Part shown: in pieces, positions 43,077 to 59,473 of the stretch | How positions within the stretch are numbered: the first letter of the stretch is position 1 | Layout of the letters: every line of letters begins with the position of its first letter | NCBI RefSeq assembly: GCF_031081985.1 | Contig: NZ_JARWSK010000003.1 | Coordinates: 1 to 64,000 of the forward strand | Length of the DNA stretch: 64,000 bases | DNA from: Komagataeibacter xylinus | GTDB lineage: Bacteria; Pseudomonadota; Alphaproteobacteria; Acetobacterales; Acetobacteraceae | Reading direction: 5' to 3' | Position numbers and translations under genes: made by a program | The notes under the pieces: model-generated | What the model saw: only the letters and a program-made list of their open reading frames with translations | Told to the model about the DNA's origin: nothing | Database searches by the model: none

Positions 43077-43433
43077 TCAGCTACCGCGATAGGTTGAGAA
43101 CCCGAACGGCGAGGCCAGGAGCGGCACATGGTAATGGCCGCCCCTGCCATCGGCCCCCGCTGCCGCCATGCCGAATGCAATCGGCACCACGTCAAGGAAA
43201 GGCGGCTCGGACAAGGCTGCGCCCTGCGCGCGAAAATAGGCGGCTACGGCAAATTCCAGCCGGTAGGCGCCGGGGCGCATCTCGCCCATCTGCTCGCCCA
43301 GTTCAGGGCAGCGGCCATCGGCGTTGGTCACGCCACGGAACAGGCAGTCCTGCCCGGCCCACAGGCTGATGGCCATGCCAGCGGCGGGCCTGCCCGATAC
43401 GAGGTCAAGCACATGGGTGGAAAGCGTGCTCAT
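43077..43433 (-). CDS. uraH: 5-hydroxyisourate hydrolase
   Basis: UraH (transthyretin-like) hydrolyses 5-hydroxyisourate to OHCU, the step after urate oxidation. The 118-residue protein has the N-terminal catalytic His in LSTHVLDLVSGRPA, the conserved Arg in the AYRLEF region, YHVPLLASPFGFSTY and the diagnostic C-terminal YRGS. It is the last gene of the purine operon and its start overlaps the uraD stop by four bases. No signal peptide is visible, so it acts in the cytoplasm. Confidence 0.95.
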   Translation of the reverse strand: MSTLSTHVLDLVSGRPAAGMAISLWAGQDCLFRGVTNADGRCPELGEQMGEMRPGAYRLEFAVAAYFRAQGAALSEPPFLDVVPIAFGMAAAGADGRGGHYHVPLLASPFGFSTYRGS

Positions 43434-43957
43434 ATTTCATGCTCCAGGCGTTCGAGCACATCGGCCAGGCGAAGGGCTGCGATCTTGTTGATCTCGGCCA
43501 GCGCGGTCTGCTGCTCGACCTCGGGCGTGTTTTCCAGCCGGGTCCGCAGGCCGTTGAGGATGGCCTGCTTGTCCGAGCGCCGCACGCAGATGATGAAGGG
43601 CATGCCGAATTTGGCCGCATAGGCCTCATTGAGCGCGCGGAAGCTGGAAAACTCATCCGGCGTCAGCCGGTCCAGCCCGGCGGAGGCCTGTTCCGCAGCC
43701 GAGGCCGAGGTAAGCGTGGGGTCAACCCCCATGCGCTGTGCCAGTTCGGGGTGAGCGCGGATCAGGGCCATCTTTTCGGCCTCCTGCGCCTGTTCCAGCA
43801 CCAGCGCCATGGCGGCCAGCATGGAATCCTGCCCACTGAAGGGCGCATGGCCATGGGCGCGCTGCGCAACCCACGGCGAATGCTCGTATATCGGGCCAAA
43901 CAGTTCCACAAACCGCACGGCGGAGAGTGAATTCACCCGGTCAAAAACGCGGTTCAT
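43430..43957 (-). CDS. uraD: OHCU decarboxylase
   Basis: UraD converts 2-oxo-4-hydroxy-4-carboxy-5-ureidoimidazoline to (S)-allantoin. The 175-residue helical protein has the catalytic His-containing ALIRAHPELAQR (about residue 67) and KFGMPFIICVR, both hallmarks of the family. FVELFGPIYEHSPWVAQRA opens the protein. The gene overlaps puuE and uraH by four bases at either end, so the three are translationally coupled. Confidence 0.95.
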   Translation of the reverse strand: MNRVFDRVNSLSAVRFVELFGPIYEHSPWVAQRAHGHAPFSGQDSMLAAMALVLEQAQEAEKMALIRAHPELAQRMGVDPTLTSASAAEQASAGLDRLTPDEFSSFRALNEAYAAKFGMPFIICVRRSDKQAILNGLRTRLENTPEVEQQTALAEINKIAALRLADVLERLEHEI

Positions 43958-44865
43958 GCCGGGTGCGTCTCCAGCCAGTGCCGGGCGATGTCCAGCCGGG
44001 TGGCGACCCAGACCTTCTCGCGCTGGGCGATATAGTCAAGGAAGCGCGCCACCGCCCGCGCACGGCCGGGGCGGCCCGCCACGCGGCAGTGCAGGCCGAC
44101 GGACATCATGCGTGGTTTGTCCGCCCCTTCCTCGTACAGTTCATCAAACGTGTCGCGCAGGTAGTTGAAGAACTGCTCGCCCTCGGTAAAGCCGTTCAGC
44201 GCCACGAAGCGCATGTCGTTCACATCGAGCGTATAGGGCACGATCAGTTGCGCCCGGCCGGAACTGCGGTCGTAATAGGGCAGGTCATCGGCGTAGGAAT
44301 CGGCGTCGTACACAAAGCCGCCCTCCTCCGCCACGATGCGGGCGGTGTTGGGGCTGGTGCGGCCCTGGTACCAGCCCAGCGGGCGCGATCCGGTCAGTTT
44401 TTCATGCAGCGCGATGCATTCAAGGATGTGGGCGCGCTCCACGGCCTCGGGCACGTGCTGGTAGTCGATCCAGCGCAGCCCGTGGGAGGCGATTTCCCAC
44501 CCGGCATCCTTCATTGCGGCAACTGCAGCAGGATTGCGCGCCATGGCGGCGGCCACGGCAAACACCGTGAGCGGCTGCTTGCGCTGCGTAAAGATGCGGT
44601 GCAGCCGCCAGAACCCGGCACGCGAGCCGTATTCGTACAGGCTTTCCATCGCAATGGCGCGGGCGCCGGGAATGGACTGCGCCCCCACCATCTCGGACAG
44701 GAATGCCTCCGACCCACGATCCCCATGGAGGACCGAGTTCTCGGCCCCCTCCTCGTAATTGATGACGAACTGGACCGCGATCCGCGCCCCGCCAGGCCAT
44801 TTTGCATCTGGCGGGTTGCCCGCATAACCAACCATGTCGCGCGGATAGGCACCTGTGTCAGACAT
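43954..44865 (-). CDS. puuE: Allantoinase, PuuE (polysaccharide deacetylase fold)
   Basis: PuuE hydrolyses allantoin to allantoate without a metal centre of the AllB type. The 303-residue protein has YPRDMVGYAGNPPDAKWPGG near the start, NYEEGAENSVLHGD, SLYEYGSRAGFWRLHRIF, and WEIASHGLRWIDYQ, all characteristic of PuuE. I chose the ATG at 44865, nine bases after GGGAG; an ATG at 44883 lacks a binding site. It follows pucG by 20 bp and overlaps uraD. Confidence 0.93.
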   Translation of the reverse strand: MSDTGAYPRDMVGYAGNPPDAKWPGGARIAVQFVINYEEGAENSVLHGDRGSEAFLSEMVGAQSIPGARAIAMESLYEYGSRAGFWRLHRIFTQRKQPLTVFAVAAAMARNPAAVAAMKDAGWEIASHGLRWIDYQHVPEAVERAHILECIALHEKLTGSRPLGWYQGRTSPNTARIVAEEGGFVYDADSYADDLPYYDRSSGRAQLIVPYTLDVNDMRFVALNGFTEGEQFFNYLRDTFDELYEEGADKPRMMSVGLHCRVAGRPGRARAVARFLDYIAQREKVWVATRLDIARHWLETHPA

Positions 44866-44885
44866 GACGCCGTGGTCTCCCATTA

Positions 44886-46115
44886 TCAGTCGTTATAAGC
44901 GGCAAGGGCGGCATCGACGCCCGCACCCGCGGCAAAGCCGTGGCCTTCATGGCGCAGCACGGTCTCGAGCGCGCCCATGGTCAGCAGCACCTTGTGCTTC
45001 TCGGCGTTGTAGCCCATGGCGCCGATGCGCCAGATCCTGCCCTGCAGCGGGCCGAAGGCGGAGCCGATCTCGATCTCGAAATCCTCGCGCATGCGGCCGC
45101 GCACCTTTTCCCCATCAATGCCTTTGGGGATGTACACGCCGGTCACGTTGGTCATGCGGTGTTCGTCGCCGCCAAACAGTTCCAGCCCCATGGCGCGCAG
45201 CCCGGCGCACACCGCGCGCGATGCTGCCGCATGGCGGGCGAAGCGGGCCTGAAGCCCTTCCTCAAGCACCACGCGGGCGGCTTCACGCGCGCCGTACAGC
45301 ATGGTGGTCGCCTCGGTGTGGTGGTTGAGGCGCTTTTCGGACCAGTAATCCATGACCATGGCCAGATCGAAATAGTTCGACGGAATGCGCACGCGCGTGC
45401 CGTCTGTCGTGTCGCTACCACGAATGCCCGCCTCGACATGGCGGCGGGCGAAGATGTGCTCGGCCGCGCGGTCGGAGATGGTGATGGGGGCCGAGCCCGG
45501 CGGGCCGCCCATGCACTTCTGCAATCCGCTGCTCACCACGTCCACGCCCCAGCGGTCGGTGGCCACTTCCATGCCGCCCAGGGTGGCCGTGGTATCAACA
45601 TAGGACAGCACGTCATACTTGCGGCAAAGTGCCCCCACGCCATCAAGCGGCTGGGCCATGGTGGTGGAGGTATCGCCATGAATGCAGGCCAGTACATGCG
45701 GGCGGTGGGTTACGATGGCGTCCTCGATCTGCTCAAGGCTTGCCACCTCCCCCCAGGGCAGGTCCAGCGTCACGATCTCGGCGCCGATACGCTGCGCGAT
45801 CTCGGAAAGCAGCAGGCCAAAACGCCCCGCGCGCACGATCAAAAGCTTCATGCCCGGCTCGACCAGCGAGACGAGGGCCGCCTCGATGCCCGCGCGCGCC
45901 GTGCCATCGACCAGCAGGGTCCAGCGGTTATTGGTCATGAACACCTGACGGTAGAGGTCCATCGTCTGGTTCATGTATTCGGTCATCTCGGGGTCGAACT
46001 GGCCCAGCATGTCGGCCGCCATGGCGCGCAGCACGCGCGGGTGGGCGTTGACCGGCCCCGGCCCCATGAGCAGCCGGGCGGGAGGGTTGATCTGGCCGAA
46101 AAAGGTCTGGGTCAT
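44886..46115 (-). CDS. pucG: (S)-ureidoglycine-glyoxylate aminotransferase
   Basis: This PLP enzyme of class V transfers the amino group of (S)-ureidoglycine to glyoxylate, giving oxalurate and glycine. The 409-residue protein opens NPPARLLMGPGPVNAHPRVL. It has LLVDGTARAGIEAALVSL, HGDTSTTMAQPLDG, SYVDTTATLGGME and the PLP lysine in SSGLQKCMGGPPG (about residue 197). It also resembles serine/alanine-glyoxylate aminotransferases. The context, between allantoate amidohydrolase and allantoinase and with oxalurate genes upstream, supports the PucG/HpxJ role. It overlaps allC by four bases. Confidence 0.9.
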   Translation of the reverse strand: MTQTFFGQINPPARLLMGPGPVNAHPRVLRAMAADMLGQFDPEMTEYMNQTMDLYRQVFMTNNRWTLLVDGTARAGIEAALVSLVEPGMKLLIVRAGRFGLLLSEIAQRIGAEIVTLDLPWGEVASLEQIEDAIVTHRPHVLACIHGDTSTTMAQPLDGVGALCRKYDVLSYVDTTATLGGMEVATDRWGVDVVSSGLQKCMGGPPGSAPITISDRAAEHIFARRHVEAGIRGSDTTDGTRVRIPSNYFDLAMVMDYWSEKRLNHHTEATTMLYGAREAARVVLEEGLQARFARHAAASRAVCAGLRAMGLELFGGDEHRMTNVTGVYIPKGIDGEKVRGRMREDFEIEIGSAFGPLQGRIWRIGAMGYNAEKHKVLLTMGALETVLRHEGHGFAAGAGVDAALAAYND

Positions 46116-47362
46116 CCGAAATGTCTCTCAAAAAGTCCAATAAAGGCGATCATCGCCTGCAGGGCTGCATCCGTATCCGCATCGGTCACGGATTCAGCGG
46201 GGTTATGGCTGATGCCACCCGCGCAGCGGATGAACAGCATGGAAACCGGGGCCAGATGCGCCATGATCATGGCATCATGCCCCGCCTCGCTGACCAGGAG
46301 GCGCGGTTCGGCCCCCGTCACGTCGCGCACGGCCTGTTCCATGAAGGTGGTCAGGCGTGGATCACATGGGGTCGCATCAAGATCCTGCTGCATGCTGATG
46401 GCAAGTTCCAGCTCGCGCTTTTTTGCCACCGCCTCGGCCACGGCCAGGATTTCGCGGGCGGCCCGGTCACGCGCCGCATTGGTGCCAGCCCGCACGTCAA
46501 GGGTGAACACCACCTCGCCCGGCACCACGTTGGCCGCACCCGGCATCACGTCAAGCGATCCCACGGTGGCCACCAGCCCGTCGGTGCCCGCGCGGCCAAT
46601 GCGCTCGGCGGCGAGGATGATCTCGGCAGCACCCGCCAGCGCATCACGCCGCAGGTCCATCGATACGGTGCCCGCATGCCCCGCCATGCCGCGCAGGGTC
46701 ATGCGGTAGCGATGCTGGGCGGCAATGGCGCTGACCACGCCCAGCGCCCGGCCTTCGGCCTCGAGCACCGGCCCCTGCTCGATATGCGCCTCGACATAGG
46801 CGAGGATCTTTTCGCCCCTGCGTGATGCCTTGTGCATCTGGCCCACATCCAGCCCGAAGCCTTCCAGCGCGCTGGCCAGCGTTGCGGTCTCGCTCCAGTC
46901 GCTCATGGCGGGATCAGGGGCTTCGAGCACGCCCGCCACGGCGTGCGAGGTCAGCATGCCGGACGGGAAGCGCGACCCCTCCTCATCGCCAAAGCCTATG
47001 ACTTCCAGCGCGAAGGGGAAGCGTTTGCCCGCTGCCGCGAAATGGGCCACGGTCTCGATGCCAAGAATGACGCCGAGCATGCCATCAAAAAAGCCGCCAT
47101 CGCGCACGCTGTCGATATGCGAGCCGAGCAGCAGCACCGGGGCGTCAGGCGCAAGGCCCTCGTAGCGGCCCAGCAGGTTGCCCGCCGCATCCATGCGCGT
47201 GGTCATGCCTGCCGCGTGCATCCATGTAGCCAGCCGCTCGCAGGTGGCGCGGTAGGATGGGCCGAGATAGGGGCGGAACAGCCCACCCTCCATCTCGGAA
47301 TAGGGTGCGCGGCCGAGTTCGGCGCAGCGTGCCACCGCGCGCTGGCCCGAAGGCTGATCCAT
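46112..47362 (-). CDS. allC: Allantoate amidohydrolase
   Basis: The enzyme hydrolyses allantoate to (S)-ureidoglycine, ammonia and CO2. The 416-residue M20-type metallohydrolase has metal ligands in LLLGSHIDSV (His), GGFFDGMLGV (Asp), GFGDEEGSRFPSG (Glu pair) and YVEAHIEQGPVLE (His). Its dimerisation domain contains GMAGHAGTVSMDLRRDA and the C-terminal ligand is in RCAGGISHNPAE. It belongs with AllC/HpxK and could also be called ureidoglycolate-type Zn amidohydrolase; the operon context favours allantoate. The start is ATG at 47362 behind AGGAGG. Confidence 0.9.
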   Translation of the reverse strand: MDQPSGQRAVARCAELGRAPYSEMEGGLFRPYLGPSYRATCERLATWMHAAGMTTRMDAAGNLLGRYEGLAPDAPVLLLGSHIDSVRDGGFFDGMLGVILGIETVAHFAAAGKRFPFALEVIGFGDEEGSRFPSGMLTSHAVAGVLEAPDPAMSDWSETATLASALEGFGLDVGQMHKASRRGEKILAYVEAHIEQGPVLEAEGRALGVVSAIAAQHRYRMTLRGMAGHAGTVSMDLRRDALAGAAEIILAAERIGRAGTDGLVATVGSLDVMPGAANVVPGEVVFTLDVRAGTNAARDRAAREILAVAEAVAKKRELELAISMQQDLDATPCDPRLTTFMEQAVRDVTGAEPRLLVSEAGHDAMIMAHLAPVSMLFIRCAGGISHNPAESVTDADTDAALQAMIAFIGLFERHFG

Positions 47363-47376
47363 GCTGCCTCCTGCGT

Positions 47377-48969
47377 TTACCATGCTGCGACACACCCATC
47401 GCTGCGCGGGTCGGTCGCCCCCTCCAGCAGGCCGGAGTCATGGCGCACCAGCGCGCCCGCATGCCCCATGATGGAGGAAAATGGCGCCACGCGTTCCATC
47501 TGGTGGCCTGCGGCACTCATGCGGGCGATCACCTCGGGGTTGAAGCGGTCCTCATATTTCAGGCTGACGCTGGATTCCCCCCATGTGCGGCCCAGCAGCC
47601 AGCGCGGGGCGGTGATGGCGCGCTGCAGCGGCATGCCGTACCGCGCGTAGCGGGTGAAAAGGGCCGCCTGTGTCTGGGGCTGGCCCTCGCCGCCCATGGT
47701 GCCGTACACCATGGTCCGGCCATCCTCGAAGCGCGCGCCGGCGGGGTTGAGCGTATGGAACGGCTTGCGGCCCGGCTGCAGCCCGTTCCACCCCTGCGGG
47801 TCAAGGCCGAAGCTGGTGCCCCGGTTCTGCCACACCACGCCGGTGCGCGGCAGCACCACGCCGGAGCCATATTCAAAATACAGGCTCTGGATCATGCTCA
47901 CGGCCAGCCCGTCGGAATCGATCACGCCCAGCCACACCGTATCGCCCTGCTGCGATTGCCACGGCCACGGCGCTGCCTTGTTGGGGTCGATGCTTGCCGC
48001 CATGCGGTCGAGCGCCTTGCGGTCATCAAGGATGTCCTGCGCCTGTACGGTCATGTAGGCGGGATCGCCCACATGCGTGTCGCGGTAGCGGAAGGCCTGC
48101 TTGGTGGCCTCGACCAGCCCGTGCAGGTAATCGAAATCATCCGCGTTCGCGGCCTTGAGCCGGTCAAACAGCGCCAGGATCAGCAGCGAGGCCACGCCCT
48201 GCGTGGGCGGCGCCATGTTGTACAGGTCCGCGCCGTGAATGCGGGCATGAAGTGCGGGCTGGTGCGTCGCCCTGTGCGCCTGCAGGTCGGCCAGGGTGAG
48301 CGGGCTGCCAAGGGCCTCGAGGTCGGCGGCGAGTTCACGCGCCACCGTGCCGCGATAGAAGCTGGAAAGCCCTTCATCAGCCAGTTGGCGCAGGGTCGCG
48401 GCCAGGCGCGGGTTATGCAGGATGTCGCCTGCCTGCGGCAGCTTGCCGCCGGGCATGAACTGTGCGGCAAAGCCGGGCACGTCCTTGAGTTCTTCCACCT
48501 TCTGGCGGGTGATCTCGGCGGCGCCCGCCGTGACGGGCACGCCCTGCTCGGCATAGTACAGCGCATCACGCAGCACGCGGCCTAGGGGCAGGCCCGGCGC
48601 CATGGCATGACTCCACGACAGGGCCATCTCCCACCCCGACACGGTGCCCGCGACCGTATTGGCCGCAAGCGGGCCACGCCACGGAATCGTGTCATGGCCC
48701 GCCGCGTGATAGAACGCGGCATCCGCCTTGCCTGCCGCAGCCCCGCAGGCATCGATGGTTTCAACCCGCCCATCGGGCCACATGGTCAGCCAGAAGGCAT
48801 CACCGCCAATGCCGGTCATGTGCGGATAGACCACGGCCAGCGCCGCGGCGGTGGCAACAGCGGCCTCAATGGCCGTGCCGCCCGCCTTGAGCACGTCAAG
48901 GCCAGCCTGGCTGGCAAGGTGGTGGGGGGATGTGACCATCCCCCGGCATGAACGCGGCGTGTTCAGCAT
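47377..48969 (-). CDS. hpxW: Oxamate amidohydrolase HpxW (gamma-glutamyltransferase fold)
   Basis: HpxW hydrolyses oxamate to oxalate and ammonia. The 530-residue Ntn-hydrolase precursor is cleaved before the nucleophile Thr344, seen in QQGDTVWLGVIDSDGLAVSM. This GDTVW motif differs from the TTH of true gamma-glutamyltransferases and matches HpxW. The N-terminal half includes GGTAIEAAVATAAALAV and MTGIGGDAFW; the C-terminal half includes YGTMGGEGQPQTQ. There is no signal peptide, unlike periplasmic GGTs. It overlaps hpxY by 7 bp and lies 14 bp before allC. The start has GGAAGGAAAAGG upstream. Confidence 0.88.
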   Translation of the reverse strand: MLNTPRSCRGMVTSPHHLASQAGLDVLKAGGTAIEAAVATAAALAVVYPHMTGIGGDAFWLTMWPDGRVETIDACGAAAGKADAAFYHAAGHDTIPWRGPLAANTVAGTVSGWEMALSWSHAMAPGLPLGRVLRDALYYAEQGVPVTAGAAEITRQKVEELKDVPGFAAQFMPGGKLPQAGDILHNPRLAATLRQLADEGLSSFYRGTVARELAADLEALGSPLTLADLQAHRATHQPALHARIHGADLYNMAPPTQGVASLLILALFDRLKAANADDFDYLHGLVEATKQAFRYRDTHVGDPAYMTVQAQDILDDRKALDRMAASIDPNKAAPWPWQSQQGDTVWLGVIDSDGLAVSMIQSLYFEYGSGVVLPRTGVVWQNRGTSFGLDPQGWNGLQPGRKPFHTLNPAGARFEDGRTMVYGTMGGEGQPQTQAALFTRYARYGMPLQRAITAPRWLLGRTWGESSVSLKYEDRFNPEVIARMSAAGHQMERVAPFSSIMGHAGALVRHDSGLLEGATDPRSDGCVAAW

Positions 48970-50336
48970 GCCTTTTCCTTCCGCGCGTAACCCGCATCAA
49001 GCGGGCGGCAGGCGGCCAGGCCCGCGCGTTGCAGTTCAGCGGCCACGGCGAACAGTTTCGCCTCGGCCCCCGGCGCGCCGATCAGCTGGATGCCCAGCGG
49101 CAGGCCGTCCACGGCCAGCGGGGTGGCCAGCACCGGCAGCCCGGCCAGGCTGATGGGCTGGGTGTAAATGCCCAGATTGGCCCGCGCGGAAACACTCTTG
49201 CCATCCACCATGATGGAAGGCTGGTCGATACGCGGTGCAACCCCCACCGTGGTGGGCGCCACCAGCACATCCGCCTGCGCAAAGGCCGCATGCACCTGCG
49301 CGCGGAACCACCGGCGGAAGCGCTGCGCCTGCACAAAGGTGGCGGCAGGCAGCATGGCACCCGCCATGAGGCGATTGCGGGTGGCGGGGTCATACTGCAT
49401 GGAGCGCCTGCGCAGGCGGGGCAGGTGCAGGTTGCCCCCCTCTGCCGCACTGATGAGGAAGGCGGAGGCCCGCGCGCGCGCCACCTCGGGCAGTTCGATC
49501 ACGCTGTCATGGCCCAGATGCGCCATCACGCCATCAATCGCAGCCGTCAGCTCAGTGCTGACATTGCGGGCAAACCAGCCCCCCAGCCGCGCCACTTTCA
49601 CGGATGCCACATCGGGCAGGGCCGACACGTCCCGGCCAGACATGATGCCGTATACCGCCATCAGGTCTTCAAGCGTGTCGGCCATGGGGCCTGCGGTATC
49701 GAGGCTGGCCACGAACGGATAGACCCCGCGCAGCGGCACCTGCCCGTAGGTGGGCTTGAGCCCCCACACCCCGCACAGCGCGGAGGGGATGCGGATCGAG
49801 CCATTGGTGTCCGAGCCCAGGGTAAAGGGCAGCAGCCCCGCCGCCACGGCGGCAGCCGACCCGCCCGACGAGCCACCGGCCAGGCGGGTGCGGTCATGCG
49901 GGTTGCAGGTGGTGCCGTTATGCGCGTTCTCGGTGGAGAAGCCGTAGGCAAATTCATCCATGTTCAGGGTCGCCACCGGCACGGCGCCTGCGGCACGCAG
50001 GCGGGCGATGACGGTGGCATCCTCGGTGGCGGGCAGGTTGTCGCGCAGCACGATGGAGCCTGCGGTGGTCACCTCGCCGCGTACGTCAAACAGGTCTTTT
50101 ACGCCAAAAGGCACGCCCGCGAGCGGGCCGGGGTCGCGGCCCGCGGCAATTGCCTTGTCCACGTCCTCGGCCTGCGCCACGGCGGCGGGGCCAAGGATGC
50201 GGGTTACACTATTGAAGCGGGTATCACGGGCCTCGATATCGGCAATGACCGCCGTGACCACGCCCACGGCGTTGCGGCGGCCTGCGCGTATGTCAGCGGC
50301 GATGCCAAGCGCTGCCCCCATGGCGCGCGCGGTCAT
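48963..50336 (-). CDS. hpxY: Amidase-signature protein HpxY/AtzE, oxalurate amidohydrolase
   Basis: This 457-residue amidase-signature enzyme has the Ser-cisSer-Lys triad: Lys80 (LAGVPFGVKDLFDV), cis-Ser near 156 (LAGGSSGGSAAA) and nucleophile Ser180 (GSDTNGSIRIPS). The AtzE-type family acts with a small partner (AtzG/HpxX). In Klebsiella the pair is proposed to act on oxalurate, giving oxamate, and the neighbours here are the same. It overlaps hpxX by four bases and hpxW by seven. The general amidase fold is certain; the substrate is inferred from context. Confidence 0.87.
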   Translation of the reverse strand: MTARAMGAALGIAADIRAGRRNAVGVVTAVIADIEARDTRFNSVTRILGPAAVAQAEDVDKAIAAGRDPGPLAGVPFGVKDLFDVRGEVTTAGSIVLRDNLPATEDATVIARLRAAGAVPVATLNMDEFAYGFSTENAHNGTTCNPHDRTRLAGGSSGGSAAAVAAGLLPFTLGSDTNGSIRIPSALCGVWGLKPTYGQVPLRGVYPFVASLDTAGPMADTLEDLMAVYGIMSGRDVSALPDVASVKVARLGGWFARNVSTELTAAIDGVMAHLGHDSVIELPEVARARASAFLISAAEGGNLHLPRLRRRSMQYDPATRNRLMAGAMLPAATFVQAQRFRRWFRAQVHAAFAQADVLVAPTTVGVAPRIDQPSIMVDGKSVSARANLGIYTQPISLAGLPVLATPLAVDGLPLGIQLIGAPGAEAKLFAVAAELQRAGLAACRPLDAGYARKEKAC

Positions 50337-50611: not shown

Positions 50612-52060
50612 TCATGCAACAGGAGGATCGAGACTGACCAGTTCCGCCACGTCATAGGACAGCAGACTTTCAAGGTGCTTGCGGCCATCGGCCACGTAGA
50701 GGTCACGCCCCAGCCCGTGGGCGAGGCGCTCGACACCAAAGCGCATGCCGCTGATCGAGGCCCCCGACAGCCCCATGCTCGGCGTGGCCGAGAACGTGAA
50801 ATTATGGATGTTGGCCAGCATGGGCGCCAGCGGGTCATCCTTGTGGCGCGGCAGGAACTGATAGCAGTCGCCCAGGTAGGGATAGCTTTCCAGCACCGCG
50901 CTCTCGGCCCCTGCGGGTGCCTTGTAGCGCTCGCCCCACAGGGCGACGGAGGGGGCGAAGGATGCGGTCTCGGGCCTGCGGGACAGGTCGGTGGCGAAGC
51001 CCGTGCCAATGATCACGAAGTCAAAGCGCATCTCGCCAGTGGGCGAATCGACCACGATCTCGTCGCCCTCCATGCGGGCGCCCGTCCAGGGGCAGCCGGT
51101 ACGGTAGGCGAAGTTTGCATGCCTGCGGCACCGCCAGAACGTATCCTGCGGCGGCGGCTGGTTGAGATCGAAAATGCGGCGCATGAAGCCCCAGCGCAAC
51201 TCATCGGACAGGGCGGGGTAATAGGCGAGGAAGCCGGTATTCTCCATCCACCGGTACGGGTTGATGGAGGGAATTTCCTTGCGGCGCAGGCACAGGGTCA
51301 CGCTGCCCGCACCGTCCTCGAGCGCGGTCGCGGCATTATCGAACGCCGAGGCCCCGGCACCGAGCACGCCGACGCGCTTGCCCTTCAACGCCGCGAAATC
51401 AATCGCCTCGGATGTATGGGCATAACGGTCGCGCGGCAGGCCTTCACGGATGAAGTCGGGCACATGCCACGTGCCGCAGCCCTCGATGCCGGTGGCCAGC
51501 ACTAGCTTGCGGGCATAATGCACGTGGCTCGTGCCATCGGGGCGGCGGAAGGTCAGGCGCAGCAGGCCATCCTCCCAGGTCACACCCGTGAATTCGTGGT
51601 CATTGGCCACCGGCAGGTCGAGGATGTCGCGGTACCAGTCGAGATAGGCCTGCCAGTCCCCACGGGGGATCTTGTCCAGCTTCTCCCATGCTGCCGCGCC
51701 GTACTGCGCCTCATACCATGAGCGCGGGGTAAGCGAGGGCACGCCAAGGTCGGGGCCGGTCACGTATTTGGGCGTGCGCAGCGTGATCATGCGCGCGAAT
51801 GTCACCCACGGGCCTTCCCCGCCTTTTGAGGCCCGGTCGAATATGCGCACATTGGTGATGTTGTTGCGCTTGAGCGCAAACGCCGTGGCAAGGCCGCCCT
51901 GCCCTGCGCCGATGATCGCGACATCAAGCACGCGCCGGCCATCACGTTCGATGGGGGGAACCCATTCCTTGCGCGGGTAGCGGATGATTTCCAGGTCACG
52001 GCGCACGGCTGCATCGAGTGCCGCCAGCCCCCCGTCTTTCGGCTGCATGTTGGTATCCAT
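50612..52060 (-). CDS. FMO/BVMO-like FAD-dependent monooxygenase in the purine operon, substrate unassigned
   Basis: The 482-residue two-dinucleotide-fold flavoprotein has the FAD motif GAGQGG (51-56) and the NADPH motif GAGASA (234-239). Between them is RYAHTSEAIDF, a variant of the FMO-type FxGxxxHxxx(Y/F) fingerprint, and near the C-terminus is FVIIGTGFATDL, the second FAD-side motif. It is therefore a group B monooxygenase, unlike the group A urate hydroxylase HpxO. It lies between xdhABC-lysR and hpxXYW in the same direction. No urate oxidase is present in the cluster, so urate is a candidate substrate, but this is inference; another purine or ureide oxidation is possible. Confidence 0.75.
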   Translation of the reverse strand: MDTNMQPKDGGLAALDAAVRRDLEIIRYPRKEWVPPIERDGRRVLDVAIIGAGQGGLATAFALKRNNITNVRIFDRASKGGEGPWVTFARMITLRTPKYVTGPDLGVPSLTPRSWYEAQYGAAAWEKLDKIPRGDWQAYLDWYRDILDLPVANDHEFTGVTWEDGLLRLTFRRPDGTSHVHYARKLVLATGIEGCGTWHVPDFIREGLPRDRYAHTSEAIDFAALKGKRVGVLGAGASAFDNAATALEDGAGSVTLCLRRKEIPSINPYRWMENTGFLAYYPALSDELRWGFMRRIFDLNQPPPQDTFWRCRRHANFAYRTGCPWTGARMEGDEIVVDSPTGEMRFDFVIIGTGFATDLSRRPETASFAPSVALWGERYKAPAGAESAVLESYPYLGDCYQFLPRHKDDPLAPMLANIHNFTFSATPSMGLSGASISGMRFGVERLAHGLGRDLYVADGRKHLESLLSYDVAELVSLDPPVA

Positions 52061-52233: not shown

Positions 52234-53190
52234 TCAGACCGCGCGCTCGTCGCTCACGCCCTGCACGCGGCGCAGTTCAAGGCGCAGTTCCTCGATCACG
52301 GTTTCAAGCAATGGCGGCAGCCAGCGGGATTCACGCACATAGGCCCCGAGATCGGTCACGGCGCGGGTGTCACGCAATGGCACATGGCGCAGGCTGTCCT
52401 GGCCGGGCTGCACGCCCACGGCCAGCGGCGACTGGAAGGCCAGCCCCGTCCCTGCCAGCACCATGCGGTTGGTCAGTTCGATCGAGCCGGTATGCAGCAC
52501 CACGTTCAGCCGGTCCTGCCACGGGCGCAGCATCGGCTCCATCACGCGGTAGAGCGAGAGCGTGCGCGTGGGCAGGATCAGGCGGTAGGCCACGCATTCC
52601 TCCACCGTGACCGTGCGCAGGTGCGCCAGCGGGTGATCGGCGCGCACCACGGCACCGACGGGAAAATGCCCCACCGCCACCCGCCGCAATTCGGGGTAAA
52701 GGGCTAGCGAGAACGCGATGCCAAGGTCAACCCGCCCGTCCTGCAATGCCGAAACGATGGTCTTGGGCGCGCCGACTTCCACATGCAGCTCAACGGTGGG
52801 GAAGGCCGAGATGATGCGCTCGAGCAGCGCGGGCAGGAGCTGGCCTGCTATGCCTTCCACCGCCATGATGCGCAGCCTGCCGTCATGCCGGCCGGACAGG
52901 GCGTTGATCTGCTCCTCCGTCCGGGCGGCATCCTGCATCACGGTCACGATATGGCGGGCCATGATGGTGCCCACCTCGGTCAGGACCATGCCTTCGGGCA
53001 GGCGATCGAACAGGGGCGCGCCGATCTCGGCCTCCATCTGCGCAAGCTGGCGCGTCAGCGCCGAGGGCGTGACATTGAGCCTGCGCGCCGCCTCGCGGAT
53101 GGAGCGGCATTCCCGCACCGCATTGAAGTAGGAAATGCCCCGCGCGTGCAGGCGCATCATGCGGGGCGTGCGCGAAAGCGGATCGTTCAT
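52234..53190 (-). CDS. LysR-family transcriptional regulator
   Basis: The 318-residue protein has the N-terminal winged helix (YFNAVRECRSIREAARRLNV, TPSALTRQLAQMEAEIGAPL, FDRLPEGMVLTEVG) and a C-terminal LysR ligand-binding domain (from about residue 100, LRIMAVEGIAGQLLPALLER). It is embedded in the operon between xdhC (ATGA overlap) and the flavoprotein gene, and read in the same direction. It presumably responds to a purine intermediate and controls this cluster, but the ligand is unknown. Confidence 0.88.
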   Translation of the reverse strand: MNDPLSRTPRMMRLHARGISYFNAVRECRSIREAARRLNVTPSALTRQLAQMEAEIGAPLFDRLPEGMVLTEVGTIMARHIVTVMQDAARTEEQINALSGRHDGRLRIMAVEGIAGQLLPALLERIISAFPTVELHVEVGAPKTIVSALQDGRVDLGIAFSLALYPELRRVAVGHFPVGAVVRADHPLAHLRTVTVEECVAYRLILPTRTLSLYRVMEPMLRPWQDRLNVVLHTGSIELTNRMVLAGTGLAFQSPLAVGVQPGQDSLRHVPLRDTRAVTDLGAYVRESRWLPPLLETVIEELRLELRRVQGVSDERAV

Positions 53191-54041
53191 AAGCGTGTCT
53201 CATCCCCATCTGCATCACCTTCTTCCCGCGGCGCGTGCAGGAAGCGCGTGACGATTTCCGCCGCCACCAGCGCCGCGATGACCGGGGGCCGCTTGTCGCG
53301 CACGCCCTCCCCCCCGATGGGGCAGACCATGGCACTGATGCGGTCTTCGGGCAGGCCGAGCGCGCGGAAGGCCATCTCGAAACGGCGGCGCTTGGTGTGC
53401 GAGCCGATCAGGCCCACATAGCGAAAATCGCCCCGTTCGAGGATGGATGCAACAATCAGGCTGTCAAGCGCGTGGCTCTGTGTCAGCACCAGCGCGCCGG
53501 AGCCTGCGGGCGCGCCTGTTACAAGGCGCTGCCAGTCGCCATCATCATGCACGTCCACGCCAGGGGGAATGACGGGGCCGAATTCATGCGGGCGCGAATC
53601 GCACCAGGCCAGCCGCAGCGGCAGCGGGGCCAGCACATGGGCCAGCGCGCGGCCCACATGCCCCGCCCCGAACAGCACAAGCAGCGGGGCCTCGCGGCGC
53701 TCGCGCTCGAGTGCCGCCATGACGGCGTCCAGCCCGCTGCCATCTGGCACGTCGATGAACAGCATCACCTCGCCACCGCAGCACTGCCCGGAGCGGCCGC
53801 CAAGGTCGATGCGCAGGTCCTGCGCCCCGCCACCCGTGGCCAGCAGGGCGCGGGCTTGATGGACAGCATTCCATTCAAGCTCGCCACCGCCCACCGTGCC
53901 GGACTGCTCCGTGGGCGTGACCAGCATGAAAGTGCCCGCCTCGCGCGGGGTGGAGCCCCGTGCTGCGGATACGCTGATCCGGGCAACCGGCTGGCCCATG
54001 AGCCGCCAGCGGGCCAGATCGGCGCGCATTTCCATGCTCAT
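53187..54041 (-). CDS. xdhC: Xanthine dehydrogenase accessory protein XdhC
   Basis: XdhC binds molybdenum cofactor, sulfurates it with a cysteine desulfurase and inserts it into XdhB. The 284-residue protein has SAARGSTPREAGTFML near the N-terminus, GTVGGGELEWNAVHQAR, GGRSGQCCGGEVMLFID (the CCGG site), a Rossmann-like LLVLFGAGHVGRALAHVL, and YVGLIGSHTKRRRF. This fits XdhC. It starts 4 bp after xdhB and overlaps lysR by four bases. Confidence 0.93.
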   Translation of the reverse strand: MSMEMRADLARWRLMGQPVARISVSAARGSTPREAGTFMLVTPTEQSGTVGGGELEWNAVHQARALLATGGGAQDLRIDLGGRSGQCCGGEVMLFIDVPDGSGLDAVMAALERERREAPLLVLFGAGHVGRALAHVLAPLPLRLAWCDSRPHEFGPVIPPGVDVHDDGDWQRLVTGAPAGSGALVLTQSHALDSLIVASILERGDFRYVGLIGSHTKRRRFEMAFRALGLPEDRISAMVCPIGGEGVRDKRPPVIAALVAAEIVTRFLHAPREEGDADGDETRL

Positions 54042-54045
54042 GGGT

Positions 54046-56394
54046 TCAGCGGGCGGGAGACTGGTCGCGGCGCAGGCGATCTGCCGTGCGCAGGATCATC
54101 TCCGGCGTGGCGGGGGCATCAAGCCGGGGGCAGGTGCGGTAGCCATCAAGGCTGGCCAGCGCATCCGATATGGCCTGCAGCACCGATACCCCATGCACGA
54201 AGGGCGGCTCGCCCACCGCCTTGGAGCGGAAGATGGTGTGCTCGCGGTTAGGCGCGTTTTCCAGCAATTCCACGTTGAACACGCGCGGGCGGTCGGAACA
54301 GGCGGGGATTTTATAGGTGCTGGGCGCATGCGTGCGCAGGCGGCCTGCCGCGTCCCATACCAGTTCCTCGCAGGTCAGCCAGCCCGCACCCTGCACGAAA
54401 CCGCCCTCGATCTGGCCAATGTCGAGTGCCGGGTTCAGCGACTGGCCCGCATCATGCAAAATGTCCACGCGGTCGATCTTTGTCTCGCCGGTCAGCAGGT
54501 CGATCACAACCTCCGAACACGCGGCCCCGTAGGCAAAATAATAGAAGGGGCGGCCCTGCCCCGTATCGCCATTCCACGAAATCTTGGGCGTTTTGTAGAA
54601 CCCGTTGGCCGACATGGATACACGCGCGAAATACGCCTGCCGGGTCAGATGCGAGAACGCGATGACCTTGTCGCCCACATGGACGCCATCGGGCGCGAAG
54701 CGCACCTCGTCCTCGCCCACGTTCCAGTGGCTGGCGGCAAATTCCACCAGCCTGCGCTTGATGCGGCGCACGGCATCAAGCACCGCCATGCCGTTGAGGT
54801 CCGCCCCGCTCGAGGCCGCCGTGGCCGATGTGTTGGGCACCTTTCCGGTGGTGGTGGCGGTAATGCGCACCTGGTCAGTGCCAAGGCCGAATTCCCGCAT
54901 GGCCACCTGCACCATCTTGGTATGCAGGCCCTGCCCCATCTCGGTGCCGCCGTGGTTCACCTGCACCGAGCCATCGGTATAGACATGCACCAGCGCACCG
55001 GCCTGATTGTAATGGGTGGCGGTGAACGAGATGCCGAATTTGACCGGGGTGATGGCGATGCCGCGCCGCAGATAGGGGCTGGCCGCGTTGAACTCACGGC
55101 ACGCCGCGCGGCGTTGCGCGTAATGGCAGCGCCGGGCCAGTGCGGGCAGCAGGTCGTGGGTGATCGAGTCTTCCACCACCATGTTGTACGGCGTGACGTT
55201 GCGATCATGCGTGCCATAGACATTGCGCAGCCGGACCTCGAGCGGGTCGAGGCCGGTGGCAAACGCAATCTCCTCGATCACGCGCTCGGCGGCGACGATG
55301 CCCTGCGGGCCGCCAAAGCCGCGATAGGCAGTGTTGGACTGGGTATTGGTGCGCAAAGGCTCCGAGCGCAGGCGCACATCGGGGTAGAAATAGGCGTTAT
55401 CGGCATGGAACAGCGCCCGGTCGATGACCGGGCCGGACAGATCGGCCGACCAGCCGCAGCGCGCGGCGAGCACCATGTCCACCGCCACGATCCGCCCGTC
55501 ATCGGTAAAGCCTGCATCGTAATCGATCACGAAGTCATGGCGCTTGCCGGTCATGGTCATGTCGTCATCGCGGTCGAGGCGCATCTTGGCCGCACGGCCC
55601 GTCCTGTCGGCCACGAGGGCGGCGAGGCAGGCACAGGCATTGGCCTGCGTTTCCTTGCCGCCAAAGCCGCCGCCCATGCGCCGCACCTCGACGGTGATGA
55701 GGTTGGCGGGGCGGTCGAGCACATGGGCGACCATATGCTGCGTCTCGGTCGGGTGCTGGGTGGAGGAGGTGACATGCATCTCCCCTTCCTCGCCCGGCCG
55801 GGCAAGGGCCACCTGCCCTTCCAGATAGAAATGCTCCTGCCCGCCCACCGTAATGCGGCCCGAAAGCCTGCGTGGCGCGTGTTCCAGCCCGGCCAGAACG
55901 TCGCCGCGCTTCATTTCCATGGGCCGCCAGACAAGCGGGCTGCCGTTTTCACGGGCCTGCGCGATGTCGAGGATGGCGGGCAGGTCTTCATAGTCTACAA
56001 CCGCCAGACGCGCCGCGCGCCGGGCGGCGCCACGCGTGGTGGCGGCAACGACAAAGAGCGGCTGGCCATAAAAGGAGACAATATCCTTTGCCAAAAGCGG
56101 CTCATCGCCCTTGCCCACCGGGCTGATCTGGTTCTCACCCGGTATGTCTGCCGCCGTATAGACCGCCACCACGCCCTCGGCCTGCCGCACGGCGTCAAGG
56201 TTCATGGAGGCAATGCGGGCATGGGCGCGCGTGCTCAGCCCGGGCACGAGGTGCAGCGTGCCACGCGGTTCGGGCAGGTCGTCAATATAACTGGCCGTGC
56301 CCTGCACATGCATGGCCGCACTTTCGTGCCGCAGGCTTTGCGATGCGCCGCCAGGCACGGGCGCGGTGGTGGCCGCGATGTTTGCATCAGCCAT
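54046..56394 (-). CDS. xdhB: Xanthine dehydrogenase, molybdopterin-binding subunit
   Basis: The 782-residue large subunit oxidises hypoxanthine and xanthine to urate at the molybdenum centre. It carries GGQEHFYLEGQ, whose first Glu matches substrate-binding Glu802 of bovine enzyme. AYRGFGGPQG contains the Arg880 equivalent. The Moco loop is MGGGFGGKE and the base catalyst is in KAVGEPPF (the Glu1261 equivalent). Together these favour purine rather than aldehyde substrates. The start is ATG at 56394, nine bases after GGGAG and overlapping xdhA by 8 bp. Confidence 0.93.
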   Translation of the reverse strand: MADANIAATTAPVPGGASQSLRHESAAMHVQGTASYIDDLPEPRGTLHLVPGLSTRAHARIASMNLDAVRQAEGVVAVYTAADIPGENQISPVGKGDEPLLAKDIVSFYGQPLFVVAATTRGAARRAARLAVVDYEDLPAILDIAQARENGSPLVWRPMEMKRGDVLAGLEHAPRRLSGRITVGGQEHFYLEGQVALARPGEEGEMHVTSSTQHPTETQHMVAHVLDRPANLITVEVRRMGGGFGGKETQANACACLAALVADRTGRAAKMRLDRDDDMTMTGKRHDFVIDYDAGFTDDGRIVAVDMVLAARCGWSADLSGPVIDRALFHADNAYFYPDVRLRSEPLRTNTQSNTAYRGFGGPQGIVAAERVIEEIAFATGLDPLEVRLRNVYGTHDRNVTPYNMVVEDSITHDLLPALARRCHYAQRRAACREFNAASPYLRRGIAITPVKFGISFTATHYNQAGALVHVYTDGSVQVNHGGTEMGQGLHTKMVQVAMREFGLGTDQVRITATTTGKVPNTSATAASSGADLNGMAVLDAVRRIKRRLVEFAASHWNVGEDEVRFAPDGVHVGDKVIAFSHLTRQAYFARVSMSANGFYKTPKISWNGDTGQGRPFYYFAYGAACSEVVIDLLTGETKIDRVDILHDAGQSLNPALDIGQIEGGFVQGAGWLTCEELVWDAAGRLRTHAPSTYKIPACSDRPRVFNVELLENAPNREHTIFRSKAVGEPPFVHGVSVLQAISDALASLDGYRTCPRLDAPATPEMILRTADRLRRDQSPAR

Positions 56395-57886
56395 GAGCAT
56401 GATCTCCCGTGGCAGTACAGGCAGCATGCACGCTGGTGGGCACGCGGACGGCGGGCGGCCCGCACTCGGCGTAAAGCCGGTTGAGCAGGTTGGCGGCGAC
56501 CGTGCTGCGGTACCATGCACTCGCCCGCATGTCGGTCAGGGGCGTGAAATCGGCCATGATCGCCTCACGCGCGGCGTCCAGCGTGGCGTCATTCCACTTC
56601 TGGCCCGCAAGGGCTTCTTCCGTGTGCCGCGCACGGCGCGGGGTGGCCGCCATGCCGCCAAAGGCGATGCGCGGATTGCGGATGGTGCCATCAGGCGCAA
56701 GCGTGAGCGAAAACGCACCCAGAATGGCCGAGATATCCTGATCGAACCGCTTGGACACCTTCCATGCGCGGATGACCGTATCGGGTGCGGGGACGGGAAT
56801 GGTGATCCCTTCCACAAACTCGCCCGGCGCGCGGTCCTGTTTGCCGTAATCGATGAAGAACTCTTCCAGCGCAATGGTGCGGCGCGTATCGCCCCGGCGC
56901 AGGTGCAACTGCGCGCCTGCCGCAATCAGCACCGGAGGGCCATCGCCAATGGGCGAGCCGTTGGCGATGTTGCCGCACACCGTGCCCGCATTGCGCACCT
57001 GCACGGAGCCGATGCGGCGGAACACTTCCTCATCGGGCTGGGGCAGGATTTCCGCCAGGGCTGCGCGGGCTTCCTGCCATGTAACGGCAGCGCCGATGTA
57101 CAGCCCTTCCGCCGTAGGCTCGATACGCCGCAGGTCGGCAATCTGGCCAATCGCAATCACATGCGGCAGGTCGCGCAGGCCCTTGGTCACCCACAGCCCC
57201 ACATCGGTCGCCCCCGCCACGATGCGGGAATCGGGGTTCTCAAGCAGCGTATGGGCCAGCGCATCCGCCGTTGCCGGAATGGTCAGGCGGCCCGTGGGCG
57301 TGGCAATGTCAACCGTAGCGCCATCACGCAGGGCGCGCAGGCGCGCGGCCATGTCATCGGCCATGGCATCGAAATGGTCAGGCCCCGCCTGCATGGCATG
57401 GCGCATGGCGCGCACGATGGGCGCATAGCCGGTGCAGCGGCACAGATTGCCTGCCAGCATGTCGTCAATGCCGCGTTCATCCTGCGCAAGCCCGGCGGCC
57501 TTGCGGCCCGCCACCATGGACATGACAAAACCCGGCGTGCAGAAACCGCATTGCGAACCATGATGCTCCACCATGGCCTGCTGCACCGGGTGCAGGCTGC
57601 CATCAGGCGCGCGCATATCCTCGATGGTGAGCACCTGCGCGCCATCGAGCATGCATACGAACTGGATGCACGCATTGACCGCGCGCCACACCAGCCGCTC
57701 GCCCTCCAGCCGCACCACGAGCACCGTGCAGGCCCCGCAATCGCCTTCGTTACAGCCTTCCTTGGTGCCGGTCAGGCCCCGCTCCTCGCGCAGCCAGTCC
57801 AGCAGCGTGCGTGTTGGCGCGATGTTGGCCAACGCATGATATTCGTTCCCGACATAGAAACGGATATCGTGTCTGATCCCCGTCAA
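56387..57886 (-). CDS. xdhA: Xanthine dehydrogenase, iron-sulfur and FAD subunit
   Basis: The 499-residue small subunit passes electrons from molybdenum through two [2Fe-2S] clusters to FAD and NAD+. The first cluster is in KEGCNEGDCGACTVLV plus NACIQF; the second in GSQCGFCTPGFVMSM and LCRCTGYAPI. The FAD domain follows from about residue 190, with GATDVGLWV and VRNAGTVCGNIANGSPIGD. It is the first gene of the operon, with a promoter presumably in the 216-bp gap upstream that also holds palindrome copy F. Confidence 0.94.
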   Translation of the reverse strand: MTGIRHDIRFYVGNEYHALANIAPTRTLLDWLREERGLTGTKEGCNEGDCGACTVLVVRLEGERLVWRAVNACIQFVCMLDGAQVLTIEDMRAPDGSLHPVQQAMVEHHGSQCGFCTPGFVMSMVAGRKAAGLAQDERGIDDMLAGNLCRCTGYAPIVRAMRHAMQAGPDHFDAMADDMAARLRALRDGATVDIATPTGRLTIPATADALAHTLLENPDSRIVAGATDVGLWVTKGLRDLPHVIAIGQIADLRRIEPTAEGLYIGAAVTWQEARAALAEILPQPDEEVFRRIGSVQVRNAGTVCGNIANGSPIGDGPPVLIAAGAQLHLRRGDTRRTIALEEFFIDYGKQDRAPGEFVEGITIPVPAPDTVIRAWKVSKRFDQDISAILGAFSLTLAPDGTIRNPRIAFGGMAATPRRARHTEEALAGQKWNDATLDAAREAIMADFTPLTDMRASAWYRSTVAANLLNRLYAECGPPAVRVPTSVHAACTATGDHAHG

Positions 57887-58102: not shown

Positions 58103-59473
58103 TCAAACGGATAACCGGGCCGCCTGCCGCAGCCGCGCCGACAGGCCGGGCCGGAATGCCGGGCAGGGCACGTAGGCACCGCAGGTGGCCCCTTCCTGCA
58201 GCGCGCCATCACGGAACGCCACCACCCCGCCGCGGATGACGCATTCTGGCTGGCCGCCCAGCGCAATGCCACCATACAGGCCGCCCGCGCTGGCAGGGCG
58301 CATCTCCTGTGCATCGGGGTTCCACAGCACAAGGTCGGCATCAGCACCCGGCATGATGGCGCCCTTGCGGGGGTATATGTTGAAGGCCATGGCTGCCGCC
58401 TCCGATGTGGCGCGGACGAATTCCTCCGCCTCCATCACGCCCGCCTGCACGCCGTGCCGCCACACCACGCGCATCCGCTCGGCCAGCCCCCCTGCCACGC
58501 CATGGCCCGCCCGCCCTGCCGGGCTGAAGCCACTGGCCACCATGCCCACCGCGCCACAGGCCAGCGCGCCCCACAGCGCGCGCCGGTGCGTGCCGTCGCG
58601 CAAGGGCGGGCGCATCAGGTAGGGGGAAGCATCATCGGCATCATACACCGCCTCATCGAGCACAAGATGCGGGGCCAGCACATGCGCCTGCACGCGCTCG
58701 GCCCGGGCGCGGGCGGCGATGATGGCGGCACACGCGCCCGCCGTTGAAACCGGCCCAACATGCACGGGCGCCCCCACCAGCCCCGCCAGCATGATGGCCC
58801 GGCCAACGGCATCCGCCTCGATGGCGGGCGGGCAGGCCAGCGGGCAGGCTTCGGCTGCGCTCACGCCCGCATGGTCAAGGGCCGCGCGCAGGTAGGCCAT
58901 GGCCTGCGCGTTCTGCGCCTCGATCACGCACAGGGCGCCAAGGCCCGCGGCATGGGTTGCCAGATCAAGAATGTCACGATCCGCCATGCCCGCTGCCATG
59001 GACAGATGAAAGCTGTTGACCCCACGGCCCGCCAGCATGTCCATGCCCCCCATGACAGCGCCACCGCCACCCGGCAGCCCCATGCACAGCCCGACATCGA
59101 CCGGGGCGCAGGCCGCTGCCTGCCGCCAGTCGCGCCACGCCTGCGCCATGTCACGGCCCTGTGGCTGCATCACGTCGATCACGGTGGTGGTGCCGCCGGC
59201 CAGCGCATCAGCCGTTGCAGCAAAACCGGCCGCATCCGCGCCAATGCCGGTATGGGGGTCAACCCCACCCGGCAGGACCAGCAGGCCATCGGCGTCGATG
59301 ATGGTGCAGGCGGTGGGCGCTTCAAGCTCAGGCCCGACGGCGAGAATCTCTCCCACGCCGCCGCACAGCACGTCCACCCGCAGGCTGGCCTGCCCCGTGA
59401 CTACCGTGCCGCCGCGAACCAGCAGCAGATCGCGCTGCGCGCCGTGCTTCATGCTCGCCCCCGTTACAGACAT
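58103..59473 (-). CDS. Hydantoinase/dihydropyrimidinase-family protein lacking most metal ligands
   Basis: The 456-residue amidohydrolase-fold protein aligns with D-hydantoinase over its length. The HxH motif reads PHTG (His74 kept, second His now Gly76). The carbamylated Lys of SFK is His156 (SFHLSM). The His of vHaEN is Ile184 (VIEAQNA), the His of VVHVS is Pro241 (VGPVST), and the Asp of vatDH is Gly315 (VASGFSP). It is thus predicted catalytically dead or reshaped. The beta-sandwich part remains (IYPRKGAIMPGADADLVLWN). The frame is open and intact. It precedes xdhA, flanked by palindrome copies F and G. Confidence 0.75.
   Translation of the reverse strand: MSVTGASMKHGAQRDLLLVRGGTVVTGQASLRVDVLCGGVGEILAVGPELEAPTACTIIDADGLLVLPGGVDPHTGIGADAAGFAATADALAGGTTTVIDVMQPQGRDMAQAWRDWRQAAACAPVDVGLCMGLPGGGGAVMGGMDMLAGRGVNSFHLSMAAGMADRDILDLATHAAGLGALCVIEAQNAQAMAYLRAALDHAGVSAAEACPLACPPAIEADAVGRAIMLAGLVGAPVHVGPVSTAGACAAIIAARARAERVQAHVLAPHLVLDEAVYDADDASPYLMRPPLRDGTHRRALWGALACGAVGMVASGFSPAGRAGHGVAGGLAERMRVVWRHGVQAGVMEAEEFVRATSEAAAMAFNIYPRKGAIMPGADADLVLWNPDAQEMRPASAGGLYGGIALGGQPECVIRGGVVAFRDGALQEGATCGAYVPCPAFRPGLSARLRQAARLSV

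Follow-up and report, generated by a model that had tools for sequence, protein, structure and literature searches.

HpxO is the group A urate hydroxylase of Klebsiella and Acinetobacter. An FAD-dependent urate hydroxylase of Xanthomonas, HpyO, was reportedly described by Michiel et al. in 2012, and the published, experimentally tested HpyO sequence is said to be from X. campestris. In PMC4562309, HpyO is given as a urate oxidase from Xanthomonas spp. that is not homologous to HpxO and uses NAD(P)H and FAD, and Table 1 of that paper has the number of UraD-containing species without Uox, HpxO and COG3748 dropping from 44 to 26 when "no HpyO" is added. The drop fits an HpyO family as broad as the one described below, the members of which are not named there. 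No assignment of the urate-oxidation step in acetic acid bacteria was found in the part of the open-access literature covered, which included PMC4562309, PMC10117892, PMC5270733 and PMC5840417. We describe here a Komagataeibacter gene that, to judge from homology, gene linkage and co-occurrence, very likely encodes an HpyO-family flavoprotein urate hydroxylase that would make 5-hydroxyisourate for UraH and UraD.

The genes of the cluster in the window (the whole stretch of 64,000 nucleotides that was analysed) are listed in Table 1. The flavoprotein gene is the first of a run of nine genes, in the order flavoprotein, hpxX, hpxY, hpxW, allantoate amidohydrolase, PLP aminotransferase, puuE, uraD and uraH, and because the run that it heads ends with uraD-uraH it is more than a mere neighbor of hpxXYW. 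It is separated from hpxX by 42 bases, and the other neighbors in the run overlap by 4-19 bases apart from one pair that lies 2 bases apart (ORF starts as listed). Upstream of it are lysR, after a gap of 173 bases, and then xdhC, xdhB and xdhA; the xdhB ORF as listed overlaps xdhA by 134 bases, so its true start is probably further in. We take hpxW, in name and predicted role, to be an oxamate amidohydrolase gene, and the PLP aminotransferase is a predicted ureidoglycine aminotransferase. The amidohydrolase encoded upstream of xdhA falls under all of the curated cut-offs shown, and the cluster already has a PuuE allantoinase. A promoter scan of the cluster found 0 promoters versus 2.8 expected by chance.

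Table 1. Predicted genes of the purine cluster in the window, in the order of the flavoprotein run followed by the genes upstream of it
Feature	Position	Strand	Evidence
HpyO-family FAD/NAD(P)H-dependent flavoprotein, predicted urate hydroxylase (urate to 5-hydroxyisourate)	50612..52060	-	homology, linkage, co-occurrence
hpxX, AtzG-like small subunit, 78 aa	50333..50569	-	PF13318 40.1 bits, cut-off 24
hpxY, AtzE-family amidohydrolase	48963..50336	-	NF006631 593.8 bits, cut-off 461
hpxW, gamma-glutamyltransferase-like	47377..48969	-	TIGR00066 326.7 bits, below cut-off 357.85
allantoate amidohydrolase	46112..47395	-	NF006775 579.7 bits, cut-off 479
PLP aminotransferase	44886..46115	-	every NCBIfam match under cut-off; role from context
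puuE allantoinase	43954..44883	-	TIGR03212 537.6 bits, cut-off 424.6
uraD OHCU decarboxylase	43430..43957	-	TIGR03164 191.3 bits, cut-off 96.25
uraH hydroxyisourate hydrolase	43077..43433	-	TIGR02962 105.7 bits, cut-off 87.45
LysR-type regulator, adjoins flavoprotein gene	52234..53190	-	ORF list and profile search
xdhC	53187..54041	-	PF13478, PF02625
xdhB molybdopterin subunit	54046..56520	-	PF20256, PF02738, PF01315
xdhA FeS/FAD subunit	56387..57886	-	PF00941, PF03450, PF01799, PF00111
hydantoinase/allantoinase-like amidohydrolase	58103..59473	-	TIGR02033 260.9 bits, below cut-off 393.25

The original prediction, that the cluster encodes xanthine dehydrogenase together with UraH and UraD, agrees with the profile searches: the Pfam domains of XdhA, XdhB and XdhC are present, and UraH and UraD score above their NCBIfam cut-offs. 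Since XdhABC, UraH and UraD are all present, a urate-oxidation step is needed. The prediction had also stated that uricase, PuuD and HpxO are missing from the window, and the genome-wide search that it proposed extends this to the whole Komagataeibacter genome (3.53 Mb in 16 contigs, completeness 100): the uricase model PF01014 gave 0 matches (2 of 14 control genomes have one), the PuuD model PF06181 gave 0 matches (1 of 14 controls has one), and the HpxO model NF033623 gave only eight weak matches, the best of them at 86.8 bits versus a cut-off of 500. Twelve of the 14 control genomes also match NF033623, 0 of them over the cut-off, and the best match in the Komagataeibacter genome is a FAD_binding_3 protein at a locus other than that of the flavoprotein.

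The flavoprotein itself is a 482 aa FAD/NAD(P)-binding protein with two dinucleotide-binding motifs (GAGQGG at residues 51-56 and GAGASA at residues 234-239), and it scores above the Pfam cut-offs for Pyr_redox_3, Lys_Orn_oxgnase, Pyr_redox_2 and NAD_binding_9. It has no match to NF033623 at E-values up to 0.001, and BLASTP against a putative HpxO-like protein whose gene adjoins uraH (L184) aligned only a 20-residue FAD motif; HpxO was rejected as an identity for the flavoprotein on these grounds. The window protein is predicted to share flavin-dependent urate hydroxylation with HpxO, but it belongs to another family. PuuD, a membrane cytochrome c urate oxidase, acts at the same pathway step but is an unrelated membrane protein, and PF06181 has no match either in the Komagataeibacter genome or in the 19 genomes with close homologues (below). 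The two motifs and weak matches to PDB sequences, some of them monooxygenase and BVMO entries, give the protein a likeness to group B FMOs and BVMOs, the class in which it was originally placed, but FxGxxxHxxx[Y/F/W], which we take to be the fingerprint of that class, occurs in none of 76 sequences. A canonical group B FMO was rejected for this reason, and the class assignment is doubtful.

The flavoprotein gene is conserved. A congener genome (G060) encodes a version 88% identical to the window protein, 17 genomes of other genera encode versions with 55-82% identity, and ten Komagataeibacter loci among the best 80 of 556 relatives (L063-L071 and L118) encode proteins with 90-98% identity, 98% in K. 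xylinus. The same genome also contains two paralogues (L256 and L257, at 138339-139742 and 430418-431824 of contig C9) that are 42-44% identical to the window flavoprotein; each adjoins a LysR gene, and both are without the residue set that is common to the uraD/uraH-linked proteins (below).

Are close homologues of this protein found where uricase and PuuD are missing? In a sample of 100 genomes of the family, representing 99 genera, 69 have some flavoprotein match and 19 have a close homologue (55% identity or more); UraD is present in 36, PF01014 in six, and PF06181 in 22, of which 18 matches are long and four are weak and partial. The latter (G062, G076, G077 and G083), none of which is a close-homologue genome, were left off the PuuD list. 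All 19 of the close-homologue genomes have UraD and 0 of the 19 have PF06181 or PF01014, which is the outcome of the co-occurrence survey that the original prediction had suggested, carried out for Uox and PuuD. The 36 UraD genomes divide into 12 with PuuD or uricase, 19 with a close homologue and five with neither. Fisher's test gives p values of 6e-11 for the link to UraD and 5e-6 for the avoidance of Uox and PuuD, both calculated on the assumption of independent genomes, which does not hold for related genera. A single contig carries the flavoprotein gene and uraD, about 8 kb apart or less, in 13 of these 19 genomes; in the other six (G001, G009, G010, G053, G056 and G071) the two genes are on separate contigs. 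Among the five UraD genomes without a close homologue, Uox or PuuD, one (G023) has a 45% identical homologue between uraD and uraH, the uraD of another (G033) has stops, and a third (G075) is 77% complete; the remaining two (G006 and G052) stand as exceptions. More distant homologues (about 39-51% identity) occur in 11 of the 24 genomes with PuuD or uricase. Close homologues stand in place of uricase and PuuD across genera. At two further loci (L260 and L261, in G005 and G016) uraH adjoins the flavoprotein gene and the UraD model has no match; these genomes have either uricolysis without UraD or an overlooked uraD.

Gene neighborhoods were compared in a set made up of the best 80 of 556 confirmed relatives, in which many loci are cut by contig ends and 57 are at least 21 kb long. 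Among these best 80, 59 loci have uraD or uraH no more than 10.5 kb away and 41 have hpxY or hpxW; both kinds of gene are present in 35 and neither in 15, and 24 loci have uraD or uraH without hpxY or hpxW versus six with the reverse (a contig end cuts four of these six). When only the 57 loci that reach 21 kb are counted in the same best 80, uraD or uraH is present in 45, hpxY or hpxW in 32 and neither in 10, with uraD or uraH alone in 15 and the reverse in two. A pattern tied to hpxXYW, which had been named beforehand as evidence that would count against a urate role, was therefore not observed (24 versus 6 of the best 80 of 556), and the idea that the flavoprotein belongs with hpxXYW was rejected. 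None of the 96 loci tested has a PuuD match that reaches 80 bits.

Homologues that adjoin uraD and uraH or lie near them, often without hpxXYW, are found in Azospirillaceae, Sphingomonadaceae, Xanthomonadaceae, Myxococcota and Vampirovibrionales and on a Priestia plasmid. The gene has uraD and uraH as its immediate neighbors on either side in Niveispirillum (L193, L116), an Azospirillum MAG (L117) and Novosphingobium (L140), as well as in G652 (L201) and G023 (L227), and the order FMO-AllB-like-...-uraD-uraH occurs at loci of Polyangia, Pyxidicoccus, Myxococcus and Vampirovibrionales. Plasmid p5 of Priestia filamentosa (CP136440.1; L272:5749-9431) carries a nucleobase permease, uraD, uraH and the flavoprotein, four genes in a row, and this flavoprotein is 60% identical to the Xanthomonas protein (below). 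Recombinase and Tn3 transposase genes lie about 3 kb beyond the run, which looks like a transferred minimal uricolytic module and would be a handy minimal system for a direct test; a styrene/indole-monooxygenase-type flavoprotein gene two genes before the permease is one other flavin oxygenase candidate there. Among the plasmid records listed, most of those with annotation label the flavoprotein gene only "NAD(P)/FAD-dependent oxidoreductase".

No Xanthomonas appears by name among the best 80 of 556 relatives, and samples of genomes by phylum and class gave mainly PuuD neighborhoods, HpxO-like ones and a single HpyO-type gammaproteobacterium (G652), with no recognised Xanthomonas. The genus was reached through a marker, phosphoglucomutase, taken from a PDB alignment. 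In 229 genomes, marker identity is 82-83% for family f46 versus 68% for the next family, and UraD (PF09349) is present in 39 of 297 f46 genomes. We examined 20 of these 39 Xanthomonadaceae neighborhoods: in 12 of them a homologue of the window protein is flanked by uraD and uraH on opposite sides, each with its center within 1 kb, and the remaining eight have PuuD in three cases (L248, L249 and L253) and neither in five. Six of the 12 flanked loci belong to genus g576 (marker identity 96-100% in 16 of 16 tested genomes) and four to genus g567 (89-92% in 7 of 7). Because of its marker identity we read g576 as Xanthomonas.

The 12 Xanthomonadaceae homologues are 44-47% identical to the window protein, and those of Xanthomonas 45-47%; in one of the latter (L236) 219 of 468 residues (47%) are identical over nearly the full length, at 405 bits. 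The PF13454 domain, presumably the one linked to HpyO in InterPro's naming, scores 56 bits in the Xanthomonas homologue and 29.3 bits in the window flavoprotein (cut-off 21.8), and it is not specific, since a homologue unlinked to uraD or uraH (L123) also passes at 46.6 bits. From the position of the locus we infer, strongly but indirectly, that the Xanthomonas gene between uraD and uraH would be HpyO. The window protein resembles it in sequence, in PF13454 and in predicted reaction and cofactors, but the two proteins lie on separate branches of the tree (below), and their genes are differently placed, at the head of the hpxXYW-AAH-aminotransferase-puuE-uraD-uraH run in the window and between uraD and uraH in Xanthomonas. 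The window flavoprotein thus appears to be a further member of the HpyO family rather than a new invention, and a reading of it as a new, fifth urate oxidase was rejected because genomes placed in Xanthomonas have a gene of the same family between uraD and uraH. Of the original prediction, then, the urate-oxidation role is strongly supported, by the replacement of uricase and PuuD and by linkage to uraD and uraH with or without hpxXYW; its novelty ("undescribed") is not supported, as Xanthomonas, the genus of the reported HpyO, has this homologue. The HpyO family would reach past Xanthomonas into Azospirillaceae, Sphingomonadaceae, Myxococcota, Vampirovibrionales and a Firmicute plasmid.

In a tree of 76 sequences (near-duplicates left out, midpoint root), three deep lineages contain uraD/uraH-linked proteins: the first unites Xanthomonadaceae with Novosphingobium, G023 and G652, the second Acetobacteraceae with Azospirillaceae, and the third Myxococcota with Melainabacteria. 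A rhizobial branch, linked to uraD or uraH in one of seven rows, joins the Acetobacteraceae side (SH-aLRT 90 with the midpoint root). The linkage label changes 15 times on this tree versus 22.5 times in shuffles, and 0 of 500 shuffles were as low. A single clade of the Xanthomonas side and the Acetobacteraceae is absent from the tree, yet the AU test does not reject it (p 0.285). Proteins of the Xanthomonas side are 43-47% identical to the window protein, those of the rhizobial branch 47-51% and other paralogues 41-49%; these ranges do not separate the groups, so the functional argument rests on linkage and replacement and not on identity.

Six residues, N267, R270, E273, Q301, S437 and G438, are invariant in 48 of 48 uraD/uraH-linked rows used, a count that left out L131, L136, L137 and L141, and in 48 of 49 when L136 is included. 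All 6 of the rhizobial rows lack G438, as do 7 of 8 paralogues, and W325, present in 46 of the 48 linked rows of the three lineages, is missing from the same 6 of 6 rhizobial rows. The set is missing from 14 of 16 homologues in genomes with PuuD or uricase and present in two (one in G027, which has PuuD, and one in G026, which has uricase), and it also occurs at eight loci without uraD or uraH on the contig (L110, L111, L115, L124, L131, L137, L141 and L262); a Mesorhizobium protein (L273) has it complete except for K at 270. The six residues are common to the linked proteins and not specific to them, and their use as a marker of urate hydroxylases was rejected on account of the 2 of 16. Some branches of the superfamily lie outside purine clusters and the set occurs in two genomes with PuuD or uricase, so sequence alone is no proof of function. 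Neither of the two carriers in such genomes (L295 in G027 and L296 in G026) has uraD or uraH nearby, and L296 lies beside ABC-transporter-like genes.

The missing urate-oxidation step in Komagataeibacter is very probably carried out by the window flavoprotein, a predicted role that would close the urate-to-allantoin gap in acetic acid bacteria. By analogy with HpyO and HpxO, bound FAD would be reduced by NAD(P)H, the reduced flavin would react with O2 to give a peroxyflavin, and the peroxyflavin would hydroxylate urate at C5, yielding 5-hydroxyisourate and water; the inferred substrate and cofactors are thus urate, FAD and NAD(P)H. The 5-hydroxyisourate would then pass to UraH, UraD and PuuE and into the amidohydrolase/aminotransferase/HpxXYW branch.

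Might another protein of the same genome perform the step, or might this one perform a different one? An HpxO-type or other group A hydroxylase elsewhere in the genome, to which the eight weak NF033623 matches could point, is extremely improbable given how far the best of them, a FAD_binding_3 protein, lies below the cut-off and how common such matches are in the control genomes. Somewhat less far-fetched, though still improbable, is that the flavoprotein oxidizes a different substrate (some other purine, a ureide or an hpxXYW-branch intermediate), with an unrecognised urate oxidase encoded elsewhere in the genome. Members of the superfamily do occur in other settings: rhizobial loci have deaminase- and amidase-like genes and no uraD or uraH, a Mesorhizobium member adjoins a molybdenum hydroxylase, a protein with the residue set lies beside ABC-transporter-like genes in a uricase genome, and the two paralogues in the Komagataeibacter genome adjoin LysR genes. 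Against a different substrate for the window protein stand the 24 loci, among the best 80 of 556, that have uraD or uraH and no hpxY or hpxW, the permease-uraD-uraH-FMO run on a Firmicute plasmid, the finding of PuuD or uricase in 0 of 19 close-homologue genomes, and the lack of any Uox or PuuD match in the Komagataeibacter genome.

It is also conceivable, if unlikely, that the window protein hydroxylates urate but was recruited within the same superfamily independently of HpyO, and so is not a true HpyO orthologue. The tree parts the Acetobacteraceae from Xanthomonas and joins the mostly unlinked rhizobial branch to the former, and identity between the Acetobacteraceae and Xanthomonas proteins is no higher than identity to paralogues. 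On the other hand, one clade is not rejected by the AU test, and the linked rows of all three lineages have G438 (48 of 48) and W325 (46 of 48) in common, neither of which occurs in the 6 of 6 rhizobial rows. About equally unlikely is the wider scheme in which urate hydroxylation was gained repeatedly in the superfamily, the Acetobacteraceae enzyme being recruited separately from HpyO, with the rhizobial sister branch acting on a different purine-like substrate. Membership of the window protein in the HpyO family remains the reading that we prefer.

The rhizobial branch may act on another nitrogen heterocycle. At five of its loci (L122, L123, L128, L133 and L134, from Martelella, Bradyrhizobium, Kaistia and Hyphomicrobiales) the flavoprotein is without G438, and the surroundings have deaminase-like, PuuE-like and in some cases amidase-like genes and no uraD or uraH. 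One protein of this branch, that of Candidatus Tokpelaia sp. JSC189 (L136), is linked to uraD and uraH and has A at 438, so that it either departs from the residue pattern as an exception or has a different activity; its gene adjoins a puuE-uraD-uraH-permease run.
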